NCBI GenBank assembly: GCA_022539475.1
Contig: VCMS01000003.1
Span: 270,983-334,982 of the forward strand
DNA from: Gracilaria domingensis
Lineage: Eukaryota; Rhodophyta; Florideophyceae; Gracilariales; Gracilariaceae
DNA length: 64,000 bases
Reading direction: 5' to 3'
The notes beneath the pieces are model-generated. The model was not told where the DNA came from, made no database searches, and saw only the letters and a list, made by a program, of their open reading frames with translations. Positions within the stretch are counted from its first letter, which is position 1. Each line of letters begins with the position of its first letter. Positions 8,369 through 43,554 of the stretch are shown one piece after another. The translations under genes were made by a program, and so were the position numbers.

Positions 8369-9811
8369 CTACAGCTTCACATCACCGAAACGAATCAGCG
8401 CTTTGATCTCTTCATCCAGCAACTCAACAAATCGCTGAGGATTACTGATACGGCCCTCGTCCCCATACACCCCAATACATATCCGCCCGTTGTAGGAATG
8501 AATGCCAACCACAACCCCGCAGTGTCCGTCACTGGGTGCGAAAAAATGCAACCCCGACACTTCAATGCCCCCGATTGAGACTGCCTGTCGTGGCCCCGGT
8601 ACATTGGTGAACACCACAGATCCACTTCTTGTGACACGGCTCCATAATGCACGTCTCAACATAGTGGGCAATCTGGAAAGTACGTCCAGCAGCGTCATAA
8701 GCAGCACTGGAGTCGTTCCGGACTTGACAATGCGCATCGTTCGAACACAGCATCTCAATCGCTCGCGAAGTTGGCTGTGATGCACGTGAAGCGGTAGGGT
8801 CATAATTGCGAACCGGTTGGACACGTCTTGTGCTCCATTCTTTCCAATCGCATGGTTGTTGAATGGAATGCCCACTCGCAACCCAGTGAGCGCGTCGGCA
8901 TCGTCACCACTTTCGGTCAAGTATGCACGTGTAGCACCCGACACTGCCGTGTAAAGCATGTCATTAATAGTGATACCGAGCGATCGCGCAGCGTGCTTCA
9001 AAGCAGAAACAGTGTACACTGAGGGTGGTAACATGGCGCATACCTTCGTCGGTTGCAACGGTGATCGAACGAACGTGTTATCCTTCTCGGGGATGAGTGT
9101 ACCTATCACGGCGTTAACGTTGGTGCTGAAGGCAGCCCAATTGTCGACGACAGCATGTTGAAGACGCGTAAGCAGACCGCGAAATTGGTCTCGCGGAGCT
9201 CGGCGGGGCGGCGTTTTGAGTGCATTGTTGTGCTTATGTTGTTGTTCTCGCTGACGACTTGGGACGACTAATTGGTCTACAGTGTGTTCTGCACGGCTGT
9301 CAGTGATGTGTGACATGAAGTATTTGACGAGACCAATACCATCTGCGACGACATGATGGATTCGGAAGACGAGCGTTGCGCACTGTTTGCCTTGTGAATG
9401 CGGTTCTATGGACCACATGGGGAAGAAATGGAGACGCCATAGAGGTCGTTCGCGTGGGAAGGGCTCGGAGATGATTTGCGACAGACGTTGTTGAAAGAGG
9501 TGGTTGCGCTTCTCGTGGGGGAGGGAGAGATCGATGATGGGTTCTTGCACGACGTGGTGCTCTCGAAGCTGGTCGGACTGGGCGGTGAAATCGGGTATGG
9601 GTTGAAAGCACGCCTTTCCGTTGGGTGTGGCAATGCGGGCGGAAAATCGGGGGTGAGCGAGGAGCCTTGGGACAAGAGTGGAGTATATCCATTGCTCGGA
9701 GGGGCATTTGCTGAGGGTTGCAAAAGCGGTGATGATGACGGGGTTGTGCGGAACGGTCTCATCGACGAAAAAGCGCTCGATGGGGGCAAGGTTGGTCCAT
9801 GTGTCGGTCAT
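8369..9811 (-). CDS. Wax ester synthase / diacylglycerol acyltransferase (WS/DGAT)
   Basis: An O-acyltransferase of the bacterial/plant WSD1 type, which moves an acyl chain from acyl-CoA to a fatty alcohol or diacylglycerol to make neutral storage lipid. The 480-residue protein has the N-terminal landmark LAPIERFFVDE, PLWRLHFF, the catalytic IHHVVADGIG (HHxxxDG, near residue 155), LGITINDML, GIPFNNH and the C-terminal DUF1298-type motif VVFTNVPGP. No targeting peptide is evident. The start is the ATG at 9811; the frame also runs up to a GTG. A TATA box at 9891-9898 lies 80 bp upstream. It is divergent from a close but interrupted paralogue at 10378, implying a local duplication. Confidence 0.9.
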   Translation of the reverse strand: MTDTWTNLAPIERFFVDETVPHNPVIITAFATLSKCPSEQWIYSTLVPRLLAHPRFSARIATPNGKACFQPIPDFTAQSDQLREHHVVQEPIIDLSLPHEKRNHLFQQRLSQIISEPFPRERPLWRLHFFPMWSIEPHSQGKQCATLVFRIHHVVADGIGLVKYFMSHITDSRAEHTVDQLVVPSRQREQQHKHNNALKTPPRRAPRDQFRGLLTRLQHAVVDNWAAFSTNVNAVIGTLIPEKDNTFVRSPLQPTKVCAMLPPSVYTVSALKHAARSLGITINDMLYTAVSGATRAYLTESGDDADALTGLRVGIPFNNHAIGKNGAQDVSNRFAIMTLPLHVHHSQLRERLRCCVRTMRIVKSGTTPVLLMTLLDVLSRLPTMLRRALWSRVTRSGSVVFTNVPGPRQAVSIGGIEVSGLHFFAPSDGHCGVVVGIHSYNGRICIGVYGDEGRISNPQRFVELLDEEIKALIRFGDVKL

Positions 9812-10377
9812 CTCGTTGGGGCAGCGGGTTGTGAACGTGAGCACTGGGAGTGAGATTGTGCGTCGTGACGACGAGAGTTTTTGAGGGCGCTTTTTATAGT
9901 ATCGGGCGCTCAGTGCTCAGTGCGTCCGACGGGCGCTGCTCTCAACTTGGAACGGGGGCGTTTCGAAATGTGAAGTTGGGATTTGCGGCATGCTCAGCTG
10001 CGGTACGGCGAGGATAGCGTCCTCGCGAGCCAGATGGTTACGCTCTCTTCCGTTGGACTGTGCTGAGGTGCGAGCATCGCACATCTAAAAGACATTCGGT
10101 ATCGGTATGAGATATCCGACATGCAACGCCAGAGTGGCCGAACAGCCGCGCGGCGGGAAGAGGACGCACGCACGTCACACACGTGTGGCCAGTACCGCTG
10201 TAAGCGTGGCATGACACATGGCGCTGACGTGGCTGGATGGCATGATGCATCCATCACAATGTGCACCTCATCCGCGCGTAAAAGGTGCGCGATCTACCCG
10301 CCGGCACATCGTGTAGCACGAGCCCGTTGCCCGTCAACGAGCAGTCCCCGACGTGCGCGCAACGCACGCGCCCGGAA
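9812..10377. promoter_or_regulatory. Shared divergent promoter of two WS/DGAT paralogues
   Basis: A 566-bp gap separates the two acyltransferase starts, head to head. The leftward gene has a clear TATA box. For the rightward gene only a weak candidate (GCGTAAAAGG near 10276) is visible. Co-regulation would be natural but is an inference from spacing alone. Confidence 0.5.
9891..9898 (-). promoter_or_regulatory. TATA box of the leftward WS/DGAT gene
   Basis: On the minus strand the site reads TATAAAAA within ACTATAAAAAGC, 80 bp upstream of the ATG at 9811. The position fits a transcription start near 9865 and a short 5' UTR, and supports the ATG over the farther-upstream GTG. Confidence 0.7.
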
Positions 10378-11739
10378 ATGAGCGAACCGCAGCCACAGCC
10401 GCGGCGCCGCGCGAAATGGCGCAAGCTGGCGCCGCTCGAGCGCCTCATGCTCGACTAGCGCCTGCCCACCAAGCAGGACGTCATCACCGTCTGCGTCACG
10501 CTGTCGTCCTCGCTCCCCGTTCACTGCCTGCAGGCCGCCGTCCTGCCGCGCTTTCTCTCCCACCCGCGCTTCCGAAGCGTGCTGTCGAGCGGAGCGCGCC
10601 CGCGTCGCTTCCGCCTGGACCCCTCCTTCAGCGCCCATTCGCCGCACATCGCTTCGTACCACTTTGTTGTCGAGTCCGTTGTCGACTCCTCGCTGTCTGA
10701 GCGGCAGCAGCTCGCCGCGTTTAACACCCGTCTCAACCATATCCTCTCCACTGGCTTGCATCTCTCCCGCCCGCTCTGGAGGCTGCATGTATTTCCTGGC
10801 TGGTCTCTCCTTCCCGAAGCGCGAGCCACAAGCACCACGCTTATCCTGCGTGTACACCACGCCATCTCCGATGGTATCGGCCTCGTCAAGTATTTTCTCT
10901 CCCGTGTCGTTGACACCGACCCTTCGTCAGCTAACCCCGCACTCCGACGTTTCTCCCGCCCGCACCGCCCCTTTGTTCAGGCGTTCGTTGACACCATGGG
11001 CGACCTCAGAAAATCGCTAGTCGTTCCGTTCCGTTCCGACGCCAAAACCGCCTTCACGCAGCCCAAGCAGAACGATTTTAACCACTGCGCCTTGCTTTCT
11101 CCGTCACCTGCCAGTATTGCAGACCTGAAGCTTGCGGCCAAGAAAAGGAATGCCACCATCAACGACCTTCTCATGGCTGCATTTGCGGGCGCCGTGCGCA
11201 CGTATTTCATTCAAAGCGGTCAGCACGTGGACAAGCTGCGCAACTTTCATGTCGCTATGCCGTTCAACCGTCACGTGTTCGAAGAGTTTCGCGACGAGCA
11301 TGTGTGTAATCAGCTTGCAATGCTACCGGTGCGACTTCCGGTCCATATTGAACACCCTGAAGAACGACTGCAAGCTTGCGTACGCGAGATGAATCGCGTG
11401 AAACGAAGCGTGCAACCACAACTGGCGCTGGCTGCAATGAAGATGTTGGCTGCGCTTCCGCTGGCGTTGAGGCGTCTTGCTTGGCGTCGTCTTAGTAAAT
11501 CGGCCAGCGTTTTATTCTCCAATGTCCCGGGCCCAGTGTCCACCGTGTTTGTCGAAGGAGTTCCGGTGCAGAGTGTATATGTATTTCCGCCGATTGATTC
11601 GAATACCACGGTGAACATTGCCATGTTCTCGTACGATAATGCACTATATGTGGCTGTTTCCGGGGATTCGAATCGATTGTCTGATCCGCACGGCATGATC
11701 GAGCATTTTGGCGATCAGCTTAACCTGTATTTGTGCTGA
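10378..11739 (+). pseudogene. WS/DGAT paralogue with a single in-frame TAG at codon 27
   Basis: From the ATG at 10378 the frame runs to 11739 (454 codons including the final stop) and is broken only by TAG at 10456-10458. The prefix LAPLERLMLD aligns with LAPIERFFVD of the neighbouring gene and continues after the TAG without a gap (RLPTKQDVIT against TVPHNPVIIT). The stop therefore replaces the Glu codon by one G-to-T change. Downstream the protein is complete: PLWRLHVFP, VHHAISDGIG (catalytic HHxxxDG), NVPGPVSTV. No in-frame ATG lies between the stop and residue ~200, past the active site, so restarting would give an inactive product. It could be a young pseudogene, a polymorphism, a sequencing error or stop readthrough. 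Confidence 0.8.
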
Positions 11740-21204: not shown

Positions 21205-23219
21205 ATGCGCTTCGAGTATCAGCTGCTGGTACTTCTGCTGTGTTTTTCGTCGGCCCTAGGCAGCATCTCCTGGAAAAAAGTACCGGTTTCCGGCAGTTAT
21301 CCAGGTCGCGGAGAAACATCTCTTTCTCTATGCGGTGGTAATAAAATATGCCTTCTTGGTGGACGTGGAACAAATCACGTTCACATTCTTGATACGCAAA
21401 CTCTGCAATGGACAGAGGGTCAATCCAATTCGTTGGAAATGCATCACTTCCAAGCCGTGCAGGGTCCTGACAACTGCGTTTGGGTAGTCGGTGCGTGGAC
21501 GGGTCCCTTCCCCGCCGAAGATACTGTGGACAACTTGTGGCGCTATTGCCCGGATTCCGACGAATGGTTTAAGGATGTTAACATTGCACGCCCAAGAGGT
21601 GCTGGCGGCACTTTCTTCTACAATGGAAAGCTCTATCTCGTCACTGGTAACGTTGGCGGCCACCGTGCTGGTGCTAAGGTTGTGCCTTGGTTCGACTCGT
21701 ACGACCCTACCACTGGCGAATGGGAAGAGCTTCCGGACATGCCCAACCGTAAGTTGCAGAACGAGTGCGTTGTTTCTTCGTATATCACCAAATCCGGTTT
21801 TACTAACCCATGATCCTTCCTCATACGACGCAGCGCGCGATCACTGCAATGCCGTTGTGCTTGGTAGCAAGGTGTACGTCACCGGTGGTCGTCGCTCGAC
21901 ATCAGACTTCCCAGAGTTCTTCGACGACACGGTTGCAGAGGTGGATGTCTTTGACTTTGCCACCAGCGAGTGGAGCACTCTTACAGAACTTTCGCGTCCG
22001 CGTGGCGGCACGGCTGCGGCGGTGCTCGGTGGTACGGTGTACGTGATGGGAGGTGAAGGCGACAACCGAGCATGGACTGAAGTTGATGTGCTCAAGGGCT
22101 CGTCTTTCGAACCAGGCCCTTCGCTGCCAGAACCAAGACACGGCACGGGAATTGTTTCATGCAGTGGAGCAATCTGGATTGCGGGCGGTGAGCGTGTCAT
22201 TGGCGCTGGTGACCCTGCGACGGACACATATGCTCTGTATGACGGAGACGAGTTGCCGGTATGTCGCGGCTCAGCACCCAGTGCACCAACAGCGTCCCCG
22301 AGCTCCTCGAGCAGTGAGGAGATTAGCCAAGAGATCAGTCAGGAGCCCTCTCCTGTTTCCTCGCCTTCACCTTCTCCAGATCCAACGCACGAGTCAAAAG
22401 AAACGCAGCAGTCAGCAGGGTCTTCTGCTCCCAATGATACTGCTAGCGGAGCCGTCGGAGCGGACGAAATCGATGCAAGCAGCACCCCTTCCAGCCGTAA
22501 GTTAATTCTCACGCACCTCACAGTTTTTGTGGGTCTAACTCAGCCCGTGTGCGCTGTTGTGATTGAGCGCCAGCAACCCTCTAACGATGTTCCTTTTGTT
22601 TTGCACAGCACCATCACCATCGGCGCAGGAAACCGTCTCCACAGAAAGCTCCTCTGAAAGCAGCAGCAGTGACCCTGCCTGCTTCCCGTCTGATGCCACA
22701 GTGGAGCTCGAGGATGGCTCCATCAAAGCTATGGTTTCGTTGCGCATCGGCGATCGTGTCAAAGTTGCTCATCCCAGCGAGTACAGTGAAGTGTATTTCT
22801 TTTCACACAACCATCCGGACAAACACTCTGAGTTTATCAACATCAAGACGGCAATTGATGGTGTGTCATTGACTCTATCAGCAGGACATTTGGTGCATGT
22901 TAACGGCGCTTTGTTGGAAGCGTCACGCGTGCGTGTTGGAGACAAGGTGTCCATCGCACATGACTCAAAGACTACAGCAGTGACCGAGGTGTCCAGGATG
23001 AAGGCAATGGGATTGCACAACCCGCACACTATGCATGGTGATATCGTTGTGAATGGAGTGATTGCCAGCACATATACTTCTGCACTTCACCCCACCGTCG
23101 CCAAGATGCTTCTATCGCCAATGAAGGTTGCTTACCGCATGTTGAGCACGCGTCAAAGTATGGAAGATGTGAACCGGGTGGTGCTCCACACCCTGGATGC
23201 GGCGTACTGGAGTAGTTGA
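21205..23219 (+). CDS. Secreted kelch-repeat protein with C-terminal hedgehog-type Hint domain
   Basis: Three exons: 21205-21748, 21834-22496 and 22609-23219. Both introns (85 and 112 nt) have GTAAGT donors and CTAAC-type branch sites, and both splices are phase 1 and in frame. The product is 605 residues. A signal peptide (LLVLLLCFSSALG) is followed by kelch beta-propeller repeats (GGRGTNHVHILD, VTGGRRSTSDF, VMGGEGDN), a Ser/Pro/Glu linker, then a Hint domain starting CFPSDATVELEDGSIKAM. Hint hallmarks are visible: the initial Cys, the SLRIGDRV turn, the LTLSAGHLVHVNG block with its TxxH-like His, and the DIVVNGVIASTYT end. Hint domains of this type cleave themselves at the Cys. The kelch part would then be released, perhaps with a C-terminal adduct. 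The partner is unknown. Confidence 0.88.
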
Positions 23220-23537: not shown

Positions 23538-24338
23538 TTACCATTCTGTTCCTTCCTGAGTGGTGAGAGGAATTTGGGCGGTCCTCTTCCTTCTCCGCCA
23601 CAAGGGGATGACAACGCAAATGACGGCAGCAAGAACAGCGACAGCCGCAAGCGCGCCCAATATGATCTTCCAAAAGCTAACGCCCAGTGTTCCTTGTTCG
23701 ATGGACAAAGATGCCAGGTTGGCATCTGTTTCCAATGCAGTGAGAGGCTCCACGGGCAGGGTATCTCCCTCATTGAAGGGATCAGACATATCAAACTCGC
23801 GGCTACTATCAAGCCCCGAGTTGAAATTCTTGACTCGAATGTTCTGACGTTCTACTATGAAGTCGGAGCGCTGACACAAATCCAAGGAATCTATGCCGAC
23901 AAACCAGGAGGGTGATGGGCTCAACTGCGCCATAAGCGAAATTCTGGAGGCGGAATCCTTGACCTTCAACTGCAACTGAGAAATATCATCGATTGGAATA
24001 TCGTGAAGAACACTGAACGAGTACACATCGCCGGAATCGCGGAGAGCATCGAACTGCTGTTTGATTTCATCAGCCTTGCCCGCCGACGCCACCTCCGCAG
24101 CAGCGTCACTCAACTTTTTCGATCGCTCAAACAAATGGTAGCTGGGCCTGTGTGACACGGCGACGAGCACGGGGATTCGCGCCTTTTCACGGGGCGGGAT
24201 TAAAGGGTTGATGTTTTGCGTAAAGGACATTTTGAGCGAGAGCACGTACGACTGTTCACCGGTGCAGGCGGCACGAACCGCAGCGGGGAGCAGCCATAGC
24301 AGCGGGAGCAGCGTCGGTACGAGCGACAATAGACGCAT
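23538..24338 (-). CDS. Type I membrane protein with Spondin_N domain
   Basis: A 266-residue protein with a signal peptide (residues 1-23, LLPLLWLLPAAVRA), an ectodomain, one membrane span near 223-247 (IILGALAAVAVLAAVICVV) and a short basic tail. The ectodomain matches Spondin_N, the F-spondin/mindin N-terminal fold. It has an early Cys, YVLSLKMSFTQNINPLIPP, VAVSHRPSYHLF, and the diagnostic LMAQLSPSPSWFVGIDSLDLC. F-spondin domains act in cell-matrix adhesion in animals; a role here is not known. It converges with the kelch-Hint gene, another surface-type protein. No intron is needed. Confidence 0.8.
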   Translation of the reverse strand: MRLLSLVPTLLPLLWLLPAAVRAACTGEQSYVLSLKMSFTQNINPLIPPREKARIPVLVAVSHRPSYHLFERSKKLSDAAAEVASAGKADEIKQQFDALRDSGDVYSFSVLHDIPIDDISQLQLKVKDSASRISLMAQLSPSPSWFVGIDSLDLCQRSDFIVERQNIRVKNFNSGLDSSREFDMSDPFNEGDTLPVEPLTALETDANLASLSIEQGTLGVSFWKIILGALAAVAVLAAVICVVIPLWRRRKRTAQIPLTTQEGTEW

Positions 24339-25467
24339 GGTGCGGTTGGAACTGGCGACGGGGACGGAGGCGTCGGCGCCTCTGGACTCGAGAGACGGCG
24401 CGGCGCGGCTGGCGCGTTTTGTTGTCCGCGTGGGGTGGGCTCCTTGTTTCGCCCGAGGCGCACCGCACGGCTCCCTCCCGTGCTGTCAGACCGGGGAATG
24501 GCGCTGTTCTGAATTGATGATTTGGAGCAGGCAATGATGCGCGAGCCACGCTGGCAACGTGGGGTGCGTGTACTCGGAACTGAATTGCGCGCCGCTCTGC
24601 TTCGTCATTGGCCGGTTGCTCGTACGCGTACCGTACCTCTACCGAAGCGGCGCTGCAGAAGCGCTCGGCGGTAGCAAACGCTGCACGGCGGTATCTTACC
24701 AGCGCGGCGGTAAGGTAGGACAAGGCTGGAGAGCGCTTCGCACGCCCCGGTATGATATGGGCGTCAGCGCGGCCAACACGGCGAACGAGGCAAACGAACG
24801 AACATGTATGTTTGCGCATCTTGTGTAATACAAATCGAACGAACACATTTACGCCGCGGATGGACGGGGAGCCGCGCACGCGCGTGGCGAGGCACAATTA
24901 CATCGGCGCCATGATTGGCGCACTTCAAAAGTCAAATTTGAAAAGCGCGCCTTGAGCGCATCATACACTGTATACAAGCGCACGCGTATTCGCTGCACGT
25001 CCACTGCATTGCACAGCCACGTCTCGCTGCATTCGTGCGCCGCTTTCCACACCCGCGCGCCCGCCAGCACAATCCGCCCGGAAGTCCGCGTCCGGTTCAA
25101 AACTGCCGCCCATGTGTCCGCCGTTCGACGGTTTAATCGCTCTGCCACGCGCCATCTGCTCTTCACTCGCCCTTCGCGCTGCCATGTTCGCCGCCGCCCG
25201 CGCCCCCACTTCGCCTCGTTCCTTCCTACTTGCTTGCGTGCCGCGCCGTTTTTGACTTTCCTATCTATCTGTTTCGCAACCCAACGTTTTGCAACGGCCT
25301 GTTTGTCCTTAGCCTACGTACCACCACGCAACCTCTCCAACACCGTTTCACAGCCGTTCCAACTGCTCCCCACATCTGCTCATCCCCGTCCGTTTAGCGT
25401 CGTCGTAACGCTTTTATAAACCGCTTCTTTTGTTTCCGTCGCCCCGCCGCCTCGCTCATCGCTCGCA
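24339..25467. promoter_or_regulatory. GC-rich divergent promoter region
   Basis: About 1.1 kb between the divergent starts of the spondin gene (minus) and an orphan gene (plus). It is GC-rich in its left two thirds and pyrimidine-rich toward the right. A TATA box at 25412-25420 serves the rightward gene. The many ORFs on both strands here show no coding features. Confidence 0.5.
25412..25420 (+). promoter_or_regulatory. TATA box of the 301-residue orphan gene
   Basis: TTTATAAAC lies about 50 bp upstream of the ATG at 25468, leaving a leader of only about 20-25 nt. Confidence 0.65.
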
Positions 25468-38339: not shown

Positions 38340-39056
38340 TCAGTAATTGCTTGCACTATAGTCTGAGACATCCTTGTGTCGAAGTCCCATACTTGCTGCT
38401 ATACAAGACAGCACTCCTGCCAGCAGGCTTATTGGCCATGCCGCGATGACCAGCTTAAAACTGTACCCTAGGTCTCCAATTGATGGAAGTGTTGTCTTAG
38501 CCCAGTTCTCACTATAGAAGACAGAGAATGCCGTCATTGTGATTAGGCCGGACACGAAGAGAATGACGCCGGCGAGCATTGCCAAAGACCGATTGATGGA
38601 TATCAAACTCACTAACTGTATGGAGAACCCAGTGACAGAGAAAAGCAATGCTATTATGAGCAAACCCCGCACCGCCTGATACGCGGTACAGTTCACCAAC
38701 GGATTAATTCGTTCTTTCGCACACGTCTTTGTACTAGATTCACTCGTCTTTCTTATCCAGCACACATTAGAAAGGCAACGGAACCCAATGTATGCGCAGG
38801 AAACCGCATTCTTTCGCTCTTTGTGGCATCCAATCCACAAACCATAGTTTGCCACACTGTATGTTATTTCAGTGAGGTCGTTCGGTAAGCCTACTCCGAT
38901 TTCCGCTGCACTCAGTTTTGTGTTCTTCATTCGAGGGTTCAAGTGACCATCTACTTTATGTAATACAACCCATGAGTTCGTCGCGACACCGACAGCGAGT
39001 AATACAAGGGAGACAAGAGATAAGCATGCTCCTAAAACGGGGTACAGTTTGACCAT
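38340..39056 (-). CDS. Claudin/PMP22-like four-span membrane protein
   Basis: A 238-residue protein with four membrane spans (about 5-27, 131-152, 157-179 and 201-223) and a long first extracellular loop. That loop carries a Trp soon after span 1 (NSWVVL), then NYGLWIGC and a second Cys about ten residues on. This is the W-GLW-C-C signature of the claudin/PMP22/EMP superfamily. In animals these proteins shape tight junctions and myelin; related four-span proteins in fungi (Sur7) organise plasma-membrane domains. A function in an alga is not known. Extra Cys in the loop (CAYIGFRC, NVCW, KTC) suggest more disulphides. The start is the ATG at 39056. Confidence 0.65.
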   Translation of the reverse strand: MVKLYPVLGACLSLVSLVLLAVGVATNSWVVLHKVDGHLNPRMKNTKLSAAEIGVGLPNDLTEITYSVANYGLWIGCHKERKNAVSCAYIGFRCLSNVCWIRKTSESSTKTCAKERINPLVNCTAYQAVRGLLIIALLFSVTGFSIQLVSLISINRSLAMLAGVILFVSGLITMTAFSVFYSENWAKTTLPSIGDLGYSFKLVIAAWPISLLAGVLSCIAASMGLRHKDVSDYSASNY

Positions 39057-41181
39057 TTCCAAGATATGGAGGTGACGAAGAGAGGTTGTTGACTTTCACA
39101 GAGATATGAGATGTCTCAATTGATTCAAGAAGAACTGGAGGATTTAATTGAGCGACACGACTGTGGAAGAGGGAAGCTGCTAGTTAGAACGGAGCAGCAA
39201 GAGAGCAGCAAAGCACACCAAACGCATATCACTCAAAACGGCGATGCTTTCCTCAGAAGTGGCTTGCAAGCTGAATGCAAAAGCTCTTTTGTCACTCTGA
39301 GGGCAGCCAGTAGCAGCCTTTGCTCGCTCCTTGAATATGAGGAGGTTACGAGAATTAAGAAAGGCGCTGTCGCGATCTTCAACTTACTTCATTCTGGGTT
39401 GACCAGTTCAAATAAACGCAGTTTCCGGGCGCTTCAGTGCGTGAATGCATTTGAAGAAGGTGTACCGTTGAAGGTGACCGTAGATATTTGGATGCCAACG
39501 TTTGTTAAAGGAAATACCCGCTTATCTTTGAACATGAAATATCTCGTGACCTTTCGATTATCATAAGCACTCATGTGAACTTCGAAAGATTTCCTTTTCA
39601 AGGCATCCTCATCATTTGGTCAATGGGCGTTAAACCAGCGGCAATTTATCTTTCAAAACTGCTCTAGAACTAGGAGAAAGCACAGTCTTTCTTAGCATTA
39701 AACATTTCATGCAGAACTTGCATTCTGCTTTGTCTCTGCGATAAAGCAATCTACTTGTATCTAGCAGACTTCCCTATCTTCGAAATATAAAGCTGCGCTG
39801 TTCTCTCTTGTAGGCTCTGGCGCGTTAGTTCATCATGACGTATGTCGTCTAAGGTCTATAACGACAAAGACATTCTCAAAGCCTCGCACCTTTGCTCTTG
39901 GCTGAAATGCTGTGCTTTGCGCGATAACTCAGGTCCTGTACAGAAGCTGTAACTTTCATATTTGCTTCGCTCTACGTGCAATATGTTCTGCAGCTGACCG
40001 TAAACAAGAGGATATGAATTATGTTCAGTTTCTTGTTCTTTGTTTCTGCTTTTGCGAGTAACGCGTCGCTTCACTTTCGAAGGACGAGTACTTCTCTTCG
40101 AGAAACAATTTATTTCAGTAAGAAGCATTCGTCTTCCGTACATGTTCGTCGCTCTTCCGTACATGTTAGTCGCTCTTCTGATAATATTCGAGAGTGTCCT
40201 CGTATGGGATGAGAATTTGCCGTGGAAGTCTCTCTCTCCCTGTTTATGCAAAAAAGTGAAGCTAATTCCGCTGCCACGCATGGTTTTGCTCAAGACCCAA
40301 CGACCCATAATACCCTTATGTCGCAGCCACTGACCACTACTCAGTGGCCGTACTGCGGTAAATACTGAGCTAGGACGAGGAAGCTGAGGTGTTTCCGATC
40401 GCGAAGCGTTTCGTCACCGACGCTTATATCCTTCGTCTTTCCCTCTTCATTCAACCTCTAAAGACCGCCGGCTCAGGGGCACAACACCACGACAAGTCGC
40501 TTCACATGTACCACGTTTGCCACTCAAGAAACCATGAGGGACGTCCTTTCCACCTAATCCTTATATCTATCGGCGAAGCCAGGTGCAAGAACCAGCCCGT
40601 AGCCTTCCACCGTCCTCCAGCTCCAGTGTAGTCCGTACGAGAAAACCCCGGAAAACCCACATCCAACGCTCCATTGGAGCTTTCCTTCAGTGGGAAAAAG
40701 TCAGGGAAACGGCGATAGGATCTTCCTTCAGTGACCTGCTAGTGACCTACTGCTTACGTGCAATTAGACGGGGGAAATTCAGCGACGTAGCGCCCCAGTC
40801 CATGAGGACGAGTTGCAACTGACCGATCGCCTGGACGACCTCTAGGGTAGCTGAAAATTGTGCGAAGCGTACATTTCGAGCTGGCCTATTCCAAGTGAAA
40901 TGGATTACGTCAAAGAGGGCATCTACCCGATAGCCATCCCTGGGGCAGAGGCTACAGCGATTGCAGAGAGCTCACAGCGTAAGCTTTTTGGCCCGAGTAC
41001 TAAAGGGGCATTCTAAAGTCTTTCAACATTAGAATGCTGAACAATCAAACTAAGAATATGTGCCTTCTTCCCTTCGGGCAGTTGACACGGACGGAGGTTG
41101 AACTCACGAATTGGAGGTGGTTTCGAATACAGGAAGATCTGCTCTCATGTTTCTCACGCCATTGCGAACACGCAAACTTCG
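39057..41181. other. Gene-poor stretch
   Basis: About 2.1 kb. A plus-strand 151-codon ORF starts at 39111, only 54 bp from the claudin-like start, but has no recognisable feature. A 21-bp tandem doublet lies at 40131-40172. The block at 40338-40372 shares words with 59231-59257. No gene is called. Confidence 0.45.
40131..40172. repeat. 21-bp tandem doublet
   Basis: Two copies of a unit close to CGCTCTTCCGTACATGTTMGT in tandem, with one or two mismatches and a partial third copy. Confidence 0.6.
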
Positions 41182-43554
41182 ATGTGCAGCTTCTGCATGA
41201 CGGTTATTTCTTCCTTGCGTTGGTTTTTCGTCTTCTTGTTTTGCACTCTGCATTCTACCAGTGCTCAACATCGATTTTCTCTTACGCTCTTGGATACTGC
41301 GACTCCGAGGCGTCCCTCTCCTCGCAGCGATCATCTTTCGGTAGTTGTAAACTCCGGGAGCGGCCCTTTGCTTATCATTCACGGTGGTAGAGATGCACAT
41401 GGTGCGAAGTCTGACACCTGGACTTACATCGTCGCCCAGAATAAATGGGGACTTCTTGCCGGCGATGCTCTCGGCTCAAATGAACGACCTCCTCCCCTTT
41501 ACGGCGCGGTTGGTGGTTATCGTTTTGTGGATGGAGAAAACTCTCCATTTCTCTACGTTGCGCTAGGAACGAGTGATGGAATGAGGTCTTTGAATACTGA
41601 AATGTGGGTTATGGAATTTAAGAACTTCACGTGGCGGCGCGTAGCCGTCGATGGGGAGAAACCAGAGCCCCGTTTTGGCGCTATCGGTAGTTTGGAGAGG
41701 TTCAGTAAACCGGATGGAACTGTCCAACCAGCTCTCATTATCAGTCATGGGTACGGCAGAAGCGGTCCTCTGAGCGACACTTATAAATGTACTTTCGATG
41801 AAAAGGATCCGTATCGAGCGTCATGGACGAGATTACGTAGACCTGTCTCACAATATTCAACACGAAACCCACACTCCATGTGGTATCAAGCAAGTTCTTT
41901 CACTGCCAATCGCGACATTGTCGTCTTCGGTGGATGTTACGCTAGTGAAGGAACGGGAGGAATATGTCCTAACAACGATGTTTGGCTTCTCGAGTACAAA
42001 CAAGAAGAAAGTAATGCTGTGGCTGCTCTCCAAACTCTTCCAGAATCAAATTCTAGTTCCTTCAGAGAAGAAGCTATCCGGTGGCAGATCCTACCAAGAG
42101 GACCGGCTCCTAGGGTTGGCGCAGCAATGGCACAGGGTCTTAATTCTTTCGAGGGTGCTTACGAAAGCCGGTTGGGTATCGCTGTTTTATACAGTGGTTC
42201 TCAGGATACAACCAGCTTGCCTTCTGATCACATCATTTCTGCTCATAAGGTTGACGGCAGCGAAATTGATCTCGTCTCCACTCAAGCTCGTACCTGGCTG
42301 AGAGAACGAATTAACTTCGATGGGCCTAAAGAATTAGAGAAGAAAGCGTTCATGCCGCGAAAGGGAGCATCTTTGGATATCGTTAGAAATAGAACCGAAG
42401 ATGATGATCTTGATGTACCAAACGAGTTCTTTCTGTTCTTCGGCGGAGAACTCGAGAACGGGCAGTTTTCCAATGAATTGATGAGAATATCGTTCGATGG
42501 TTTCCTGGAATCAGATTTGATCGAGGGCTCAGCAAGATATATATCCCGCCCGTTTGTTCATGGTTTGCTGATGTTTACTGCGTGGGGAGTGCTGATGAGC
42601 GCAGGTTCGTTCGTTGCAAGATATCTGAAGCAGCCAAATGGGCGACCTAAGTACTTCATGGTTCATCTTCTTCTTCAAACGCTTGGGCTCATTCTTACTT
42701 GGATAGGCGTTGCACTTGCGATTCAGGGTAGACGGAATACCTCTACTCCATTTCTACATGCTCGATTGGGAATTGCCTTGATTATTCTTGCCTCTTTGCA
42801 ACCTGTGGTCGCATCCGTGGGAATAGTTGCCCAAATGCGTGTTAATCCCGTGCTGTTATTTGTCAGCAAGCCAGATGCTCCCAAACTGGTACTCAGTCGA
42901 TGTCGTTTGTTACATCGAATCATCGGCGTGGTCGTCCTCGCAATGGGGTGGCTGAATATTACTCTGGGTTTGTTTTTAATCGTTGCTCCCACAATTCTTT
43001 GGGTGCACTGGCTAGTATTCGCGATCATGATGGTTGTTACCGCCGGCTGGTTGGAACTAATGAGACGCAAGGGCAGCGCAAGGATTATCACGAGAGCAAT
43101 TTCAAACAACAGAGCAAGTGTCGAAAGACCTTCATCTGTTCTCGGGAGAGTCATGCGATCTATACGAGGGGACTCGACAGCAAAGCTGGGAATGGATGAA
43201 GATATTAATGGAATCGCGGGAAGGATATCGCAATCTGATAGCATAAAGGAGGCCAGGCCGGAGGATGAAATAGCCCCAGATAGCACCGTAACAAAGAATC
43301 GGGCGCGGGCTGGAAGATACGTGGTTATTGAGGATTTTGTAGAGTCGGACGTTGTCCGTCAGCTTGTCGAACAAGAGAGAGCTCAGCAACGTACAGAGAA
43401 AGAAAAGGAAGAGCAACTTGCAGAGGAACGCAGAGAAAGAGAGAGTGCTAATGGGCTCGATAGAGATCAGGAAGATTTTGATATCTTTGGTTTCCAAAGA
43501 TCAATATCGGAAGCAACCTCAATGTATACCTATCGCGATCCTGACGCGTATTAG
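41182..43554 (+). CDS. Secreted/membrane kelch-cytochrome b561 fusion protein
   Basis: A 790-residue intronless protein. A signal peptide (SLRWFFVFLFCTLHSTSA) leads into a kelch-type propeller of about 5-6 blades (residues ~45-445; motifs LLIIHGGRDAHG, LIISHGYGRSG, IVVFGGCYASEG, FFLFFGGELENG). Then comes a six-helix cytochrome b561 domain (~450-630). Four His stand in the right helices: His460 (FVHGLLMF), His495 (FMVHLLLQ), His526 (LHARLG) and His578 (LLHRIIG), enough for two b-type haems. Such domains pass electrons across a membrane, usually from ascorbate to ferric iron. A charged cytosolic tail with a Glu/Arg coiled coil ends the protein. The ATG at 41182 is the first in frame; 41197 is possible. 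Confidence 0.85.
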   Translation: MCSFCMTVISSLRWFFVFLFCTLHSTSAQHRFSLTLLDTATPRRPSPRSDHLSVVVNSGSGPLLIIHGGRDAHGAKSDTWTYIVAQNKWGLLAGDALGSNERPPPLYGAVGGYRFVDGENSPFLYVALGTSDGMRSLNTEMWVMEFKNFTWRRVAVDGEKPEPRFGAIGSLERFSKPDGTVQPALIISHGYGRSGPLSDTYKCTFDEKDPYRASWTRLRRPVSQYSTRNPHSMWYQASSFTANRDIVVFGGCYASEGTGGICPNNDVWLLEYKQEESNAVAALQTLPESNSSSFREEAIRWQILPRGPAPRVGAAMAQGLNSFEGAYESRLGIAVLYSGSQDTTSLPSDHIISAHKVDGSEIDLVSTQARTWLRERINFDGPKELEKKAFMPRKGASLDIVRNRTEDDDLDVPNEFFLFFGGELENGQFSNELMRISFDGFLESDLIEGSARYISRPFVHGLLMFTAWGVLMSAGSFVARYLKQPNGRPKYFMVHLLLQTLGLILTWIGVALAIQGRRNTSTPFLHARLGIALIILASLQPVVASVGIVAQMRVNPVLLFVSKPDAPKLVLSRCRLLHRIIGVVVLAMGWLNITLGLFLIVAPTILWVHWLVFAIMMVVTAGWLELMRRKGSARIITRAISNNRASVERPSSVLGRVMRSIRGDSTAKLGMDEDINGIAGRISQSDSIKEARPEDEIAPDSTVTKNRARAGRYVVIEDFVESDVVRQLVEQERAQQRTEKEKEEQLAEERRERESANGLDRDQEDFDIFGFQRSISEATSMYTYRDPDAY

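Follow-up and report, generated by a model that had tools for sequence, protein, structure and literature searches.

Proteins that join kelch repeats to a Hedgehog-type Hint (Hog) domain have been described in the Cyanidiophyceae, with three copies reported from Cyanidiococcus and 11 from Cyanidioschyzon (PMC9812998). A separate study counts 17 Hog genes in C. merolae and finds, backed by proteome data, that haploid cells are the main site of expression for eight of the 10 Cyanidiococcus Hog genes, while calling the function of Hog unknown (PMC13353863). Red-algal Hog domains as such were reported by Burglin in 2008 from Chondrus, Porphyra, Griffithsia, and Gracilaria; their motif-J cysteine is replaced by Ser, Thr, or Asp, and motifs J and K are retained unless the sequence is truncated (PMC2362128). 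The sole upstream region compared in that report, that of Porphyra Hog2, matched nothing in other organisms, and kelch goes unmentioned. Choanoflagellate Hoglet and the nematode warthog and groundhog proteins also combine an unrelated N-terminal domain with Hog, but these N-terminal domains differ from kelch (PMC2362128). Lipid modification is not a new idea in itself. Covalent protein-sterol ligation has been termed singular to Hedgehog proteins (PMC7242414).

We analyzed a window of 64,000 nucleotides (the whole stretch of Gracilaria domingensis DNA under study, C3:270983-334982) that contains a gene of this type. Because K+Hog proteins have been described in Cyanidiophyceae and red-algal Hog domains have been known since 2008, it is a further K+Hog protein with an already known architecture. 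An earlier reading made from the letters alone (the sequence-only reading) had placed a secreted, nonanimal kelch-Hint fusion with a low-complexity linker at 21205..23219, and these two positions are exactly the limits of the start and stop codons. It had also posited two introns, and removal of both leaves a single continuous frame, whereas retention of either one breaks it (Table 1). The nearest paralog, locus L013 on contig C11, also needs two introns, the positions of which agree with those of the window copy. Together, the gene model and the intron match with the paralog support the presence of kelch and Hint in one predicted gene.

Table 1. Features of the kelch-Hint gene, in window coordinates
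Feature	Position	Strand	Remarks
Coding sequence	join(21205-21748, 21834-22496, 22609-23219)	+	605 aa
Exon 1	21205..21748	+	Signal-peptide-like start (MRFEYQLLVLLLCFSSALG) and first portion of kelch propeller
Intron 1	21749..21833	+	85 nt, phase 1, GT-AG; L013 intron 1 splits the same kelch codon in the same phase
Exon 2	21834..22496	+	Remaining kelch propeller (until about 22270), then start of Ser/Pro-rich linker
Intron 2	22497..22608	+	112 nt, phase 1, GT-AG, within linker; L013 linker likewise has a phase-1 intron
Exon 3	22609..23219	+	Final part of linker, then Hint (Hog) domain and stop codon
Cys427, predicted nucleophile (Hedgehog Cys258)	22680..22682	+	Predicted cut Ala426|Cys427; Cys in 37/37 rows
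His at place of Hedgehog general base Asp303	22806..22808	+	Aligned to 6TYY (D303H crystal)
S-A-G-H, equivalent of TxxH block	22878..22889	+	Thr326 replaced by Ser; His329 retained
AKMLLSPMKVAYRML, counterpart of helix 1 of sterol (adduct) recognition region	23100..23144	+	Pro kept; Lys at SHH H374 and R381 places; Leu at F377

Pfam searches with the window protein recovered the Hint profile (PF01079) at residues 420 to 588, with 102.9 bits against a cutoff of 29.7 (E 2.3e-29), and N terminal to it Kelch_6, Kelch_1, and PF24681, all exceeding their cutoffs; the profile check proposed with the sequence-only reading therefore returned both partners. The Hedge signaling domain found at the N terminus of Hedgehog proteins is not among the 10 Pfam families listed for the protein, and kelch stands in its place. 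Among the best 60 of 92 matches to solved structures, kelch propellers match this part with E values down to 1.2e-45, the top rows being molecules named SAKe..., followed by, e.g., KLHL12 and KEAP1; as the best solved matches are kelch propellers, we do not claim galactose-oxidase activity for it. The linker of 100 aa is composed mainly of S (34), P (15), A (11), E (10), and T (7). The N terminus looks like a signal peptide both to the eye and in a crude hydrophobicity scan, and on this basis the protein would be secreted. Linker composition, Pfam matches, and this start are all in line with the fusion as originally proposed. The term "self-splicing" applied to it was wrong and should read cleavage, since the activity of such Hog domains is cleavage with transfer, not splicing. 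An intein is likewise ruled out, because the place equivalent to P379 is followed by 32 residues and a stop codon, with no further domain and hence no C-extein.

The cyanidiophycean proteins share with the window protein the order of kelch, low-complexity linker, and Hog (PMC9812998, PMC13353863), but their linker is Thr/Pro/Ala rich, whereas the present one is Ser/Pro/Ala/Glu rich; the likeness between the two is one of described architecture. In the paralogous kelch-Hint pair of this genome, kelch parts are 71.5% identical over 305 codons (pN 0.19, pS 0.84) and Hint parts 58.7% identical over 179 codons (pN 0.27, pS 0.81), with synonymous sites saturated in both, and the linkers are 39% identical over 100 alignable residues (pN 0.49). 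From these comparisons, kelch and Hint domains alike look to be under purifying selection inside one gene.

A search of the 77.9-Mb assembly with PF01079 yielded 44 matches, 42 of them above the cutoff; all 44 together make up 43 loci when two pieces on C40 are counted once, and Hint frames were read at the 42 loci besides the window gene. Active-site residues were tabulated for 37 of these Hint domains, the other six loci being a duplicate of the L027 row (L028), a broken frame (L042), and fragments (L047 to L050). The Hint rows of L027 (C218) and L028 (C468) are identical, representing either a duplicate or an alternative assembly of a single locus. A profile built from a 36-row Hint alignment found hedgehog chains as its best solved relatives (6TD6, 6TYY, 1AT0, and 7E2I; E 5.5e-26 to 6.7e-20), followed by inteins with E values of 1.3e-4 and weaker. 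The alignment with the Protein hedgehog chain 6TD6_B (E 5.5e-26) spans profile positions 5 to 169 of 183 and reaches the start of the sterol recognition region (AHWGLAPMRLL). The window copy has in common with the animal Hog domains (1AT0, 6TYY, and 6TD6) the Hint profile, Cys258, His329, and the start of that region; it differs in the absence of the Hedge domain, the replacement of Asp303 by His and of Cys400 by Thr, and the lack of an HWY string.

The catalytic cysteine recognized in the sequence-only reading by its motif CFPSDATV indeed lies at the start of the Hint domain, and the "TxxH-like" block named there keeps its histidine but has Ser at the Thr position, making it SxxH in the window copy. 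Across the 37 rows, Cys occupies the Cys258 place, His the Asp303 place, and His the His329 place without exception, and these three account for three of the five invariant columns of the 36-row alignment. The Thr326 place holds Thr in 20 rows and Ser in 17, and the Cys400 place holds Thr in 26 and Cys in only 5; the replacement of the motif-J cysteine known from other red algae recurs here. Preceding the nucleophile, the window copy has Ala, unlike animal Hedgehog, and among the 37 rows Ala (13), Val (9), and Ser (5) are found there, with Gly in a single one. One rival reading is that the Hint domain has lost catalytic activity and has been retained as a folding or binding module, in keeping with Ser at Thr326 in nearly half of the family, the window copy included, and a residue other than Cys at Cys400 in 32 of 37. 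We regard this as very improbable, because the Cys and both His residues are invariant in an alignment whose remaining 35 rows share just 26 to 57% identity with the window copy. Ser may be able to do the job of Thr326, and by its residues the window Hint domain is catalytically plausible. A single-sequence AlphaFold prediction of the domain was unusable (mean pLDDT 36.2), the two tail helices being drawn at a pLDDT of about 44 to 60.

The histidine at the Asp303 place has an experimental parallel. The D303H mutant of fly Hedgehog retains its structure, pKa, and efficiency, stays active, takes a wider range of sterols, and gains more than 200-fold in activity on coprostanol (PMC9163320). In our profile comparison, the mutant histidine of this protein (6TYY; E 9.4e-24) sits under the algal one. 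Given that report and the presence of His in all 37 rows, the algal family bears naturally the base that was engineered in the fly protein.

On the basis of these observations, the explanation that we favor, with moderate confidence, is a red-algal non-Hedgehog Hog protein that is secreted, cleaves itself, and leaves an adduct on its propeller. After entry into the secretory pathway, the C-terminal Hint domain would process its cargo, the kelch propeller with its flexible linker. Cys427 would attack the carbonyl of Ala426 in an N-S acyl shift assisted by the SxxH block. The invariant His that replaces Asp303 would then activate a nucleophile from outside, which would resolve the thioester. The propeller would thereby be freed from Hint with an adduct on its new C terminus, most likely a sterol ester holding it at the membrane, though water or another hydroxyl could take this role. 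The individual steps differ in strength: judged from the conserved residues, autoproteolysis at Ala426|Cys427 appears quite likely, whereas transfer to a sterol rather than to water is a tentative proposition that we would call conceivable but short of probable. Counted in favor of the overall explanation, besides the conserved catalytic residues and the retention of H374 and R381 in most of the family, is one match in the genome to the C-terminal part of squalene/oxidosqualene cyclase (PF13243), and cholesterol has been reported as the main sterol of red seaweeds (PMC5104453). Counted against it, among the residues of the window copy, are Ser326, Thr400, a Lys in place of both H374 and R381, and the absence of HWY and Phe377.

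Several of the latter differences concern the sterol (adduct) recognition region, for which the window copy has a diverged AKMLLSPMK in place of the family block AH..LAP.R. The H374 place is His in 25 of 37 rows, the R381 place Arg in 35, and the P379 place Pro in 35, with spacing retained in the algal rows, while Lys at both H374 and R381 is found in the window copy and L013. The F377 place is Leu or Met in every row and Phe in none. Beyond the P379 place, the tail comprises 10 to 64 residues across the 37 rows (32 in the window copy), and the HWY string is absent from all 39 Hint rows scanned for it. A shuffle test for an amphipathic helix 1 was mostly not significant (P = 0.20 for the window copy). 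In SHH, exchanging helix-1 residue H374, F377, or R381, or any of the HWY residues of helix 2, for Ala drastically reduces the production of cell-associated SHH-N, P379A leaves its proportion unchanged, and deletion of helix 2 or mutation of H433 or Y435 of HWY abolishes cholesterolysis in vitro (PMC7242414). The missing HWY and Phe377 count against a hedgehog-like sterol site. The loop between the two helices of SHH is dispensable (PMC7242414), so the short algal tail need not be fatal.

The same features would suit cleavage followed by plain hydrolysis of the thioester, with the Hint domain acting as a pro-piece that removes itself and leaves the kelch protein free to diffuse into the wall or medium. 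The lack of HWY in any row, the short tail, and the altered helix-1 positions of the window copy all point this way. Nevertheless, we consider such an outcome rather unlikely in view of the universal His at the general-base place and the nearly universal Arg at R381, even if this objection is tempered by the finding that thioester formation needs no general base, the D303A fly Hint being still cleaved with dithiothreitol (DTT; PMC9163320).

Hint domains of this genome are attached to a variety of ectodomains; in contrast to the cyanidiophycean K+Hog proteins, kelch is only one of many. A Pfam scan for partners covered 38 Hint frames (L027 and L047 to L050 lying outside it), eight of which have a known partner domain above the cutoff: kelch in the window gene and L013, fasciclin in L018, L019, and L023, Temptin_C in L031, Cu2_monoox_C in L010, and trypsin in L024 (E 1e-37, profile positions 2 to 220 of 220). 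The Hint domain of L024 could serve to release or to tether the trypsin-type protease to which it is fused. Three frames (L036, L043, and L044) gave pentapeptide matches below threshold and nothing else, and the other 27 of the 38 had no partner above the Pfam cutoff. Iterative profile searches started from L029 revealed an unnamed domain of 165 positions in 14 of the 38 Hint-linked N-terminal regions (L027 omitted), namely, those of L011, L014, L016, L017, L020, L021, L022, L028, L029, L034, L038, L041, L042, and L045; it had no Pfam match above the cutoff at any of these loci. By these profile matches, fasciclin, trypsin, temptin-like, copper monooxygenase-like, and unnamed Cys-containing domains would make up a varied set of Hint ectodomains besides kelch. 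A divergent subfamily (L043, L044, and L047 to L050) consists of near-identical copies and fragments across several contigs, and one member has a stop codon inside the PF01079 match; on sequence, this looks like recent copying and decay.

A signal-peptide-like start was found by the crude hydrophobicity scan in 30 of 39 Hint rows, some of the nine misses being frames that start inside a gene; the hit in L013 was spurious, falling in the linker, and the actual start of that protein is MALHILFLFVLIYKSFANA. In 26 of the 39 rows, D, E, S, T, and P make up 20 or more of the 40 residues upstream of the nucleophile, and in the remaining 13 they make up fewer. This composition, resembling that of extended linkers, is compatible with a different acceptor, such as a polysaccharide of the wall or some other hydroxyl of the matrix, to which Hint would covalently fix the ectodomains in the extracellular matrix. 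Matrix-type partner domains such as fasciclin are compatible with it as well, as is the term "adduct recognition region," which Burglin applies to the Hog tails of nematodes, the adduct of which is unknown (PMC2362128). The start of the recognition region, however, resembles that of Hedgehog. Animal Hog domains, moreover, act in the secretory pathway and use a small sterol as their substrate, and we judge a matrix acceptor to be improbable.

In a tree of the Hint domains, the window copy pairs with L013 at 100/99, but good support is confined to five of its 34 inner branches, too few to trace domain shuffling. The window propeller also matches one place on C116 and three on C171 at 32 to 37% identity; both contigs are absent among the PF01079 matches, and inspection by eye of three frames over the 1.4 kb downstream of the C116 kelch match revealed no Hint-like sequence. 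Fasciclin has four matches in the genome, two of them Hint genes (L018 and L023) and two outside Hint loci, the third fasciclin-Hint gene (L019) being identified by Pfam. A search for bacterial or viral relatives of the Hint domain, made with the window protein and of a kind that reaches close relatives only, confirmed none among viral contigs (17 pattern stretches) or genome contigs (142).

Biosynthesis of GPI anchors is apparently missing in Rhodophyta, for want of PIG-A (PMC3797821). The loss of GPI-anchor biosynthesis and the kelch-Hint genes are both listed in PMC9812998, apparently without being connected. Profiles for PIGA, PF05007, Gaa1, and Gpi16 had no match in the present genome, which are weak negatives, as introns can hide matches and three of the four profiles also matched no control genome, so that zero matches do not show absence. 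The Mannosyl_trans family PF05007 is one that we take to be PIG-M. Other families were matched in the same genome, with two hits for GT22 and four for Patched, in addition to the single cyclase hit. The two GT22 matches are consistent with ALG9 and ALG12 in the absence of PIG-B, if these provisional labels are correct.

Many land-plant fasciclin proteins are GPI anchored, and three fasciclin proteins of this genome end in Hint. In its broadest form, the preferred sterol-linked reading would make Hog domains the general substitute of red algae for the GPI anchor, dozens of ectodomains, many of them followed by a Ser/Pro/acidic linker, exchanging their Hint for a sterol anchor, with the His general base in place of the hedgehog Asp allowing a wider choice of sterols. 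We hold this extension to be doubtful. If true, covalent protein-sterol ligation would be a widespread means of anchoring surface proteins outside animals as well. Dozens of Hog loci, the invariant His, the cholesterol of red seaweeds, and the absence of a detected GPI pathway combine into a concrete prediction, namely that surface proteins of a photosynthetic lineage carry a sterol link, and the family opens to test the question of what nonanimal Hog domains are for. In the open-licence literature searched, as far as its accessible text extends, we found no paper proposing Hog as a GPI substitute, nor did we meet a His general base across a red-algal family, such a breadth of ectodomains, or a link to the missing GPI anchor.

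Convergent with the kelch-Hint gene, the adjoining minus-strand gene at window positions 23538 to 24485 encodes a Spondin_N domain (PF06468, E 4.4e-22) followed, by eye, by one apparent transmembrane segment and a tail that is short and basic. From its sequence, the product looks like a membrane protein bearing a matrix-type domain. Elsewhere in the window, a plus-strand frame (41086 to 43554) combines kelch repeats with a following cytochrome b561 domain (PF03188) and has, by eye, a signal-like start. A minus-strand frame (38340 to 39095) matches the Claudin/PMP22 family (PF13903, E 2.3e-13), here in a red alga, and adjacent divergent genes at 8369 to 9916 (minus) and 10459 to 11739 (plus) belong to the wax ester synthase/DGAT group (PF06974 and PF03007). 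The Cyanidiophyceae and glaucophytes are not known to have phycoerythrin, and phycoerythrin alpha of the red-algal type, as encoded here, indicates a red alga that is not cyanidiophycean. The phycobilisome family has 12 matches in the present genome, 10 of them on contig C680 (179,836 bases); the best match of one of these is R-phycoerythrin alpha (1EYX, E 8.5e-94), and that of another is the phycoerythrin-type beta chain 8U0F, followed by R- and B-phycoerythrin beta, with E values of about 1e-94 to 1e-92.
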